51,113 nucleotides of DNA, from contig JAFDYI010000010.1 in assembly GCA_018267475.1 (NCBI GenBank), forward strand, positions 1 through 51,113, given 5' to 3'. Below the pieces are notes generated by a model, which worked only from the letters and a program-made list of their open reading frames with translations, was not told the DNA's origin and ran no database searches. Below are positions 14,541 to 15,521 of this stretch, piece after piece (the stretch's first letter is position 1; every line of letters begins with the position of its first letter). Origin of the DNA: Bacteroidota bacterium. GTDB taxonomy: Bacteria; Bacteroidota; Bacteroidia; B-17B0; Aurantibacillaceae. The translations under genes were made by a program, and so were the position numbers.

Positions 14541-14576
14541 AAAATAAAAAGCCGCCAAAGTTAATCAGCGGCTTTT
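14541..14576 (-). terminator. Terminator of the lipoprotein array with a promoter box in its loop
   Basis: On the minus strand a perfect 9-bp stem (AAAAGCCGC/GCGGCTTTT, plus-strand arms 14547-14555 and 14568-14576) is followed by TTTTTATTTT. The 12-base loop contains TAACTTTG (plus-strand 14556-14563), an exact -7 box for the next gene, whose ATG at 14540 directly abuts the U-tract. Confidence 0.8.
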
Positions 14577-14622: not shown

Positions 14623-14838
14623 TTAACGTAACTGGCAACTAACAGCAGAAGCTGGTGCAGTACCAGGGGCTGTTGATTGGTTAGAACAAGTGTAGCTAGC
14701 TTCAGTAGCATTAGATGCTTTAACAGTTGAAGTTGTGTATCCACTTGCATTTTGACAATCACAAGTGTACGATTTGTTACATGAAGTGGCGGCAAAACCT
14801 AAAGCCACTACTGCTGCGGATAAAATTACTTTTTTCAT
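14623..14838 (-). CDS. Small Cys-rich lipoprotein, third of a tandem array
   Basis: A 71-residue lipoprotein. The signal MKKVILSAAVVALGFAATSC has a lipobox ending at Cys20. The mature part reads NKSYTCDC, a variable linker, STVKASNATEASYTC, a second linker and SCQLR. Besides the lipidated Cys it has four cysteines, as in its two neighbours, so two disulfides are likely in the mature protein. Its family is common in Bacteroidota but has no known function. Compared with the other two copies it is the most diverged, including its leader. It is last in the array and is followed by an intrinsic terminator. It should be anchored in the periplasm or at the surface. Confidence 0.85.
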   Translation of the reverse strand: MKKVILSAAVVALGFAATSCNKSYTCDCQNASGYTTSTVKASNATEASYTCSNQSTAPGTAPASAVSCQLR

Positions 14839-14859
14839 ATTTATTTTTTATTTTTTTGT

Positions 14860-14893
14860 GCCTACTCACTTTTTGGCTTTTGGGCTCACTCCA
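14860..14893 (-). repeat. Conserved 34-bp leader element, copy A
   Basis: This copy lies 22 bases upstream of the third lipoprotein gene. It differs at two positions from copies B and C. On the coding strand it contains two similar blocks, GGAGTGAGCCC and TGAGTAGGC, around a CAAAAGCCA core. Confidence 0.75.
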
Positions 14894-14903
14894 TTTTTTT
14901 AAT

Positions 14904-15125
14904 TTAGCGTAGGTGACAATTTGTTTGATTGGTTGCGCCAGGAGCAGTTCCATTGGTTTCACAAGTGTATTCTGCTTCCGTAGCATTTTTCCCCTTTACA
15001 GTTGATGTACTGTAAGTTGGAACACCTGTATTCCAAGTGGTGCAGTCGCAATTATAGCTTTTTTGACAAGAAGTAGCTGCAAACCCTAAAGCCGCTACCG
15101 CTACAGATAAAAGTACTTTTTTCAT
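14904..15125 (-). CDS. Small Cys-rich lipoprotein, second of a tandem array
   Basis: A 73-residue lipoprotein with signal MKKVLLSVAVAALGFAATSC (lipidated Cys20). The mature part shows QKSYNCDC, a Thr/Ser-rich linker, STVKGKNATEAEYTCE, a Gly/Ala/Pro linker and NCHLR. The four mature cysteines keep the spacing seen in the first copy. Length variation is confined to the two linkers, a pattern of conserved core and drifting loops that suggests selection on the Cys framework. The 66-base gap to the next gene carries leader copy A. No promoter box is seen in front of this gene, so it probably shares the promoter at 15514-15521. Confidence 0.87.
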   Translation of the reverse strand: MKKVLLSVAVAALGFAATSCQKSYNCDCTTWNTGVPTYSTSTVKGKNATEAEYTCETNGTAPGATNQTNCHLR

Positions 15126-15146
15126 GTTTTTCTTTTTTTTTAAATT

Positions 15147-15180
15147 GCCTACTCACTTTATGGCTTTTGGGCTTACTCCA
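15147..15180 (-). repeat. Conserved 34-bp leader element, copy B
   Basis: Identical over 34 bases to copy C and 32/34 to copy A. It ends 22 bases before the second lipoprotein start; the bases between are an A-rich translation leader. No -7 box lies upstream of it. Confidence 0.8.
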
Positions 15181-15210
15181 GTTTATGTTAAAAAGGTTGT
15201 AATTTTTTAT

Positions 15211-15447
15211 TTATCTTAAATGGCAAGTTACTGTTTGGTTAGCTCCAGGTCCTGTTCCGTTGGCTTCACACGTGTATTCTGCTTCTGTGGCATTTTTAGC
15301 TTTAACGGTAGTAGTACTCCATGTGCCGTTAGCATTGCCTTGTCCGTTGCCACTGTATGTAGTGCAGTCGCAATTATAACTTTTTTGACAAGAAGTAGCT
15401 GCAAAACCTAAGGCTACTACCGCTACAGATAAAAGTACTTTTTTCAT
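15211..15447 (-). CDS. Small Cys-rich lipoprotein, first of a tandem array
   Basis: A 78-residue lipoprotein with signal MKKVLLSVAVVALGFAATSC (lipidated Cys20). The mature core is QKSYNCDC, a Gly/Asn-rich linker longer than in the other copies, STTTVKAKNATEAEYTCE, a short linker and TCHLR. It is nearest the only promoter box of the array and is probably translated from the same transcript as the other two. Signal peptide, NATEAEYTCE core and leader are almost identical to copy two, which points to recent duplication. No enzymatic motif is present. Structural, binding or redox-buffer roles are all possible. Confidence 0.87.
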   Translation of the reverse strand: MKKVLLSVAVVALGFAATSCQKSYNCDCTTYSGNGQGNANGTWSTTTVKAKNATEAEYTCEANGTGPGANQTVTCHLR

Positions 15448-15465
15448 ATTTTTCTTTTTTTTGTT

Positions 15466-15499
15466 GCCTACTCACTTTATGGCTTTTGGGCTTACTCCA
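15466..15499 (-). repeat. Conserved 34-bp leader element, copy C
   Basis: Identical over 34 bases to copy B. It lies between the -7 box at 15514-15521 and the first lipoprotein ATG, so it is transcribed as 5' untranslated RNA. Confidence 0.8.
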
Positions 15500-15513
15500 T
15501 TTTTTTGCGAGAA

Positions 15514-15521
15514 CAAATGTA
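15514..15521 (-). promoter_or_regulatory. Promoter -7 box of the lipoprotein array
   Basis: CAAATGTA on the plus strand reads TACATTTG on the coding strand, an exact TAnnTTTG match. Transcription from here would give about 60 bases of 5' leader containing element C. Confidence 0.6.

Follow-up and report, generated by a model that had tools for sequence, protein, structure and literature searches.

Riboswitches of the GEMM (c-di-GMP) type are found many times in one genome, in front of surface and secreted genes of diverse kinds. The RNA element that we describe here is likewise multi-copy, but it is unrelated to GEMM in sequence and structure, and GEMM serves only as an analogue for the regulon. 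The element itself is already catalogued: Rfam holds it as the orphan RNA family DUF805b (RF02914, clan CL00115) and lists it as cis-regulatory. A search of the open literature found no paper that names DUF805b, and the accessible part of a study of 5' untranslated regions (5'UTRs) in Flavobacterium psychrophilum (PMC9723704) does not mention it. What we add is the gene context of the element, its fixed spacing, the broad set of genes that it precedes, and a sub-type (A-G/U30, described below) that includes the copies in our sequence.

The preQ1 class I riboswitches are also small H-type pseudoknots with an A-rich loop, and several of them lie near a start codon (PMC11625349). We would limit this analogy to size and topology. 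The conserved letters of our element are different, and burial of a Shine-Dalgarno sequence would not apply, as ribosomes of the type considered here use none. Furthermore, no preQ1 model from Rfam was among the cmscan matches up to E 5, and we recognised no queuosine genes behind the element: the downstream genes encode secreted proteins, lipoproteins, bacteriocin-like peptides, TM2 proteins, rhodopsin and others.

Three lipoprotein genes on a putative single transcript

We analysed a stretch of 51,113 nucleotides (the window) from a member of the Bacteroidota (Aurantibacillaceae; contig JAFDYI010000010.1 of assembly GCA_018267475.1). A preliminary description, made from the sequence alone, reported three paralogous Cys-rich lipoproteins of 71, 73 and 78 residues. 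We found their open reading frames in place, all on the minus strand: gene A (71 residues, 14623..14838), gene B (73 residues, 14904..15125) and gene C (78 residues, 15211..15447). The motifs that were said to be common to the three paralogues could indeed be aligned (the lipobox ..SC, KSYxCDC, NATEA-x-YTC, and C-x-L-R at the C terminus).

The protein from gene C has no Pfam or NCBIfam family above cut-off. Nevertheless, these lipoproteins are members of a widespread, undescribed family, with homologues in 73 of 87 genomes of the window's family (mostly without the element). An alignment with the homologues shows that the invariant residues are the lipobox Cys and four other Cys. The consensus of this family of small lipoproteins, which has no Pfam or NCBIfam entry, is MKK..SCKK[DS]YxCxC ... 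C ... CxIK (homologues at loci L056-L084 and L175-L194). No named homologue was confirmed in a search of genome contigs. An AlphaFold model has a beta-beta-alpha-beta arrangement at modest confidence (pLDDT 69), and this modelled fold had no match in the PDB at E <= 0.001.

The three genes are likely to be carried on one transcript, in the order C-B-A, because the gaps from each stop codon to the next leader are short (29 nt from the stop of gene C to leader B, and 9 nt from the stop of gene B to leader A), because there is no terminator-like site between the genes on the minus strand, and because there is one past gene A. This last site, at 14547..14576 on the minus strand, is a hairpin of 12 pairs with a T-rich tail and would end the transcript; two terminator-like sites were found, against 1.2 expected by chance from shuffles. 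At the other end, the preliminary description saw a promoter for the first gene. The sequence TACATTTG at 15514..15521 (minus strand) does fit the Bacteroidetes -7 promoter box and would place the transcript start just before leader C, but this is a weak match, as the window has 76 matches to the TANNTTTG pattern where chance predicts 75. We also considered a promoter at a fixed distance upstream of the elements and rejected it, since matches to TANNTTTG lie at scattered distances.

Conservation of the leaders

Each gene is preceded on the same strand by a leader: leader C (15465..15500) ends 17 nt before the ATG of gene C, and leaders B (15146..15181) and A (14859..14894) each end 20 nt before the ATG of their gene. 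The 34-bp sequence that drew attention to them is found with no mismatch at 15465-15498 and 15146-15179 and with two mismatches at 14859-14892. It matches no other place in the 2.76-Mb genome at up to 3 mismatches, and a reversed control matches nowhere.

The preliminary description had proposed that the leader is conserved as strongly as coding DNA, which would reflect either a functional RNA or protein-binding leader or very recent duplication. In fact, conservation of the leader exceeds that of the coding sequence. Identity between leaders is 34/34 for B and C, 32/34 for A and B, and 32/34 for A and C (100, 94 and 94%), while identity at four-fold degenerate sites for the same pairs is 13/27, 9/23 and 8/24 (48%, 39% and 33%; Fisher p = 9e-7, 8e-6 and 9e-7). 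Just 13-17 positions match between copies in the 34 nt directly upstream of the leaders. Because the four-fold sites have diverged while the leader was kept, we conclude from these alignments that the duplications are old and that the leader is strongly constrained.

The tandem arrangement of the paralogues might still suggest that the leader is a passive by-product of recent duplication. We give this reading practically no weight: it is refuted by the heavy divergence of the synonymous sites beside an almost unchanged leader, and by the fact that, in other genera and families, the element precedes genes unrelated to these. The proposal of a functional leader held up on both comparisons, as the leader does not diverge like synonymous sites and its relatives precede homologous lipoprotein genes in other genomes (two copies, before two tandem genes, in G032 and one copy, before one gene, in G026). 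It also gains from the covarying helices and from the presence of relatives before many unrelated genes.

Relationship to DUF805b RNA

When we ran cmscan, RF02914 matched all three leaders at model positions 1-35, with 30.3 bits for leader C (genome-wide E 1.4e-6), 27.0 bits for leader B (1.9e-5) and 26.4 bits for leader A (3.0e-5). All three scores are under the curated gathering cut-off of the family, 35.6 bits. A copy from the same genus with the same A.G variant (G023:C53:31368) passes the cut-off with 40.7 bits. On this similarity, we consider the window leaders to be homologous, sub-threshold relatives of DUF805b and not curated members. They share the conserved GCC.AAAA and GAGUAGGCA and, like other copies, lie 5' of genes on the same strand; RF02914 is widespread in the window's phylum. 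They differ in scoring 26-30 bits, in having A.G for the fourth pair of the hairpin stem (P1) and C for the G before AAAA, and in preceding Cys-rich lipoproteins, whereas one copy elsewhere (L230) precedes a DUF805 gene. The genome contains a fourth copy (C24:39947-39978, E 2.0e-6), which lies before a TM2-domain gene.

A predicted H-type pseudoknot

The RF02914 model, as printed, has P1 only; the pseudoknot was added in this analysis. In this second helix, the letters NCY of the loop (before GAAAA) pair with a 3' RGN (after GAGUA). We examined both helices in two MAFFT alignments that were not fitted to a structure: A3, with 53 elements of the window's family, and A5, whose 50 elements come from other families in the phylum, together with named genomes and two viral contigs. 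In A3, the three inner P1 pairs and the second helix are 93.4% paired. The covariation score, which is not tree-corrected, was 0.626 in A3, against 0.200 for shuffled alignments (0/500) and at most 0.122 with the partners slid; the corresponding values for A5 were 0.470, 0.146 (0/500) and at most 0.103. Two-sided changes in P1 were seen at all three counted pairs in A3 and at four of five in A5. In the pseudoknot helix, 96% of cells are paired, with GC, AU, UA and CG pairs (all four types at one position), and permutation tests also back this pairing. Because the two helices interleave, we predict that the element is an H-type pseudoknot. In leader C, P1 would be formed by 15497-15500 with 15479-15482, the A.G by 15496/15483, and the pseudoknot by 15489-15491 with 15466-15468. 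Nested folding of the window copies was unremarkable (z about 0; pseudoknots are outside the folding model), so thermodynamic stability was dropped as a line of evidence.

The non-standard A.G at the top of P1 in the window copies marks a sub-type. Among 158 distinct elements, A.G atop P1 goes with a U directly before GAGUA (U30, at alignment column 30 of A3) in 23/24 cases, versus 7/126 for a standard pair (p = 6e-20, not corrected for relatedness). This sub-type was found in the window's family and in Bacteroidales metagenome-assembled genomes (MAGs), and all three window copies belong to it. A tertiary contact, for example of the A with U30, is plausible.

Spacing to the start codon

Across 149 copies of the element, 90.6% have an ATG frame that begins 13-26 nt past the element (median 20 nt), compared with 2.0% in the antisense direction and 7.0% at random positions; the ATGs of the window genes, 17-20 nt downstream, are within this range. 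By a crude rule, 25 of 98 elements lie within 60 nt of an upstream open frame on the same strand, and some lie directly past its stop codon. In Flavobacterium johnsoniae, the stretch from -20 to +20 has less structure, and initiation is helped by A residues further upstream (PMC6847099). The median 5'UTR of F. psychrophilum is 24 nt (PMC9723704), and Bacteroidia ribosomes do not use Shine-Dalgarno pairing (PMC9976891). Given the less structured -20 to +20 region and so short a median leader, a 36-nt structured element at this position is unusual and specific. With a spacing of about 20 nt, the knot would sit just outside the ribosome-loading region, which tends to be unpaired in F. johnsoniae.

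Distribution and downstream genes

At E <= 1e-3, RF02914 matched in 48 of 61 genomes of the window's family (30 of them above the cut-off, with at most 11 copies each) and in 0 of 14 control genomes. At E <= 1e-4, it matched in 106 of the 395 genomes from the phylum, and the highest copy number was 15. A scan with an RNA pattern identified Flavobacterium salmonis, Paludibacteraceae and a Saprospiraceae MAG among the named hosts. Copies were also seen in a contig labelled as a Lysobacterales MAG (L088:1004-1038) and in two IMG/VR viral contigs (L195:5391-5425 and L196:12387-12421), each about 20 nt before an open reading frame. These may reflect transfer, misbinning or use of the element by phage.

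No single function unites the downstream genes, which are varied, with a tendency towards secreted proteins, lipoproteins and bacteriocin-like peptides. In the window's family, about two thirds of the downstream proteins have a signal peptide, a lipobox or a hydrophobic N-terminus, by a crude N-terminal rule with no genome-wide control. Pfam searches of the downstream proteins in this family found type IX secretion tails in 9 of 89, as well as PKD, S74, rhodopsin, PixA and lectin domains. In other families, the downstream genes encode bacteriocin-like leader peptides (NF047798), caspase, tail-collar, TM2 and DUF805 proteins. Many bacteriocin-like GG-leader peptides (NF047798, leader_Chryseo) lie behind the element at L197-L226 (genomes G296, G351, G363 and G398), and some genomes with such peptides reach 15 copies of the element. 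The linkage to TM2-domain genes is conserved and recurs in the window's genome (L005:1501-1532), a Bacteroidales MAG (L105:3362-3396) and a genome from another family (L220:1638-1671).

We rejected the idea that the element is tied to the lipoprotein family. Around 47 loci with lipoprotein homologues, clear RF02914 matches were found only at G032:C12 (seen twice), along with one partial match elsewhere. Two homologues (L068 and L075) have a different hairpin-like leader (AGCGGATAAGCCGGCTT in L068), which the RF02914 model does not match and which is maybe a degenerate relative of the element. At another locus (L127, G026:C3:70800-73313), tandem lipoprotein genes that are unrelated to each other, collagen-like and Cys-rich, have a near-identical leader block, so the leader can accompany different coding sequences. 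The block extends further upstream and includes an ACTTG..CAAGT inverted repeat. It thus looks as if the leader has passed from one gene to another.

Candidate mechanisms

We think it probable, from the sequence comparisons above, that the leader is a known orphan cis-regulatory RNA that acts on each cistron at translation initiation, although its regulatory role is inferred. The 34-36-nt leader would fold into P1, a loop that ends in NCY-GAAAA, a short A-rich linker, and GAGUA-RGN, which would pair back to NCY. Leader C would be transcribed as part of the 5' leader, and leaders B and A would lie between cistrons. The 3' end of each would come 17-20 nt before the AUG, just outside the unstructured, A-rich region where the ribosome loads. 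How often a given cistron is translated would be set by whether its knot is folded or unfolded, or by a protein, a small molecule or the 30S subunit that recognises the knot. Control of translation (or of local mRNA stability) fits better than control of transcription because every cistron of the presumed operon has a copy.

Other mechanisms would account for some of these features. Binding of the DNA by a regulator or sigma factor would also explain a short conserved block upstream of genes, but it would not need compensatory changes in two interleaved helices, and the element lies past the presumed start site, inside the presumed operon and, in one case, 9 nt past a stop codon; we consider this extremely improbable. 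A riboswitch or attenuator that acts on transcription has a precedent in the preQ1 class I type II riboswitch of Bacillus subtilis, a small H-type pseudoknot that acts by transcription termination (PMC11625349). Here, only about 20 nt of A-rich sequence, with no terminator, separate the element from the ATG. Because this leaves no room for a terminator, and because the internal cistrons have their own copies, such an attenuator is very unlikely.

Two further readings are harder to separate from translational regulation. The observations on the element comprise its sequence family, covariation, strand, spacing and one copy per cistron, and these same traces in the sequence would be expected from a stability element or a constitutive enhancer. 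If the element set mRNA processing or stability for each cistron, as a site of RNase entry or protection, one copy per cistron would be expected, and the position of some copies directly behind upstream stops would make sense, but tight spacing to the start codon would not be needed; we see this as unlikely. The pseudoknot might instead enhance translation constitutively, or dock the 30S subunit, with no sensed signal. Its fixed spacing, which puts it close to where the 30S footprint should have its 5' edge, its very mixed gene set (as for a general expression element), and the lack of Shine-Dalgarno pairing by Bacteroidia ribosomes (PMC9976891) all agree with this. On the other hand, few genes per genome carry the element (at most 15 found), and the strongly conserved loop letters GAAAA and GAGUA resemble a specific recognition surface, which leaves constitutive enhancement unlikely.

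Within the preferred reading, of regulated translation initiation at each cistron, the secreted, surface and bacteriocin-like character of the gene set points to a physiological or a community signal more than to a single metabolic pathway. More tentatively, DUF805b might be the sensor of a post-transcriptional regulon that spans the Bacteroidota, an idea that we regard as possible but well short of probable. The 35-nt pseudoknot would bind one signal, diffusible or intracellular, or one RNA-binding protein dedicated to it. From its fixed position 20 nt before the AUG, it would gate the translation of secreted, surface and antibacterial-peptide genes cistron by cistron, by a route other than Shine-Dalgarno access. 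On this view, copies of the A.G/U30 sub-type would share the fold but have an alternative junction.

The element can now be tested: it is a small pseudoknot that occurs many times per genome, before surface and bacteriocin-like genes, with a near-constant spacing to the start codon. The operon with three copies is a handy natural construct for asking if each cistron is gated separately. Identifying the signal or partner would show how the Bacteroidota, whose ribosomes ignore Shine-Dalgarno sequences, control the translation of whole sets of genes.
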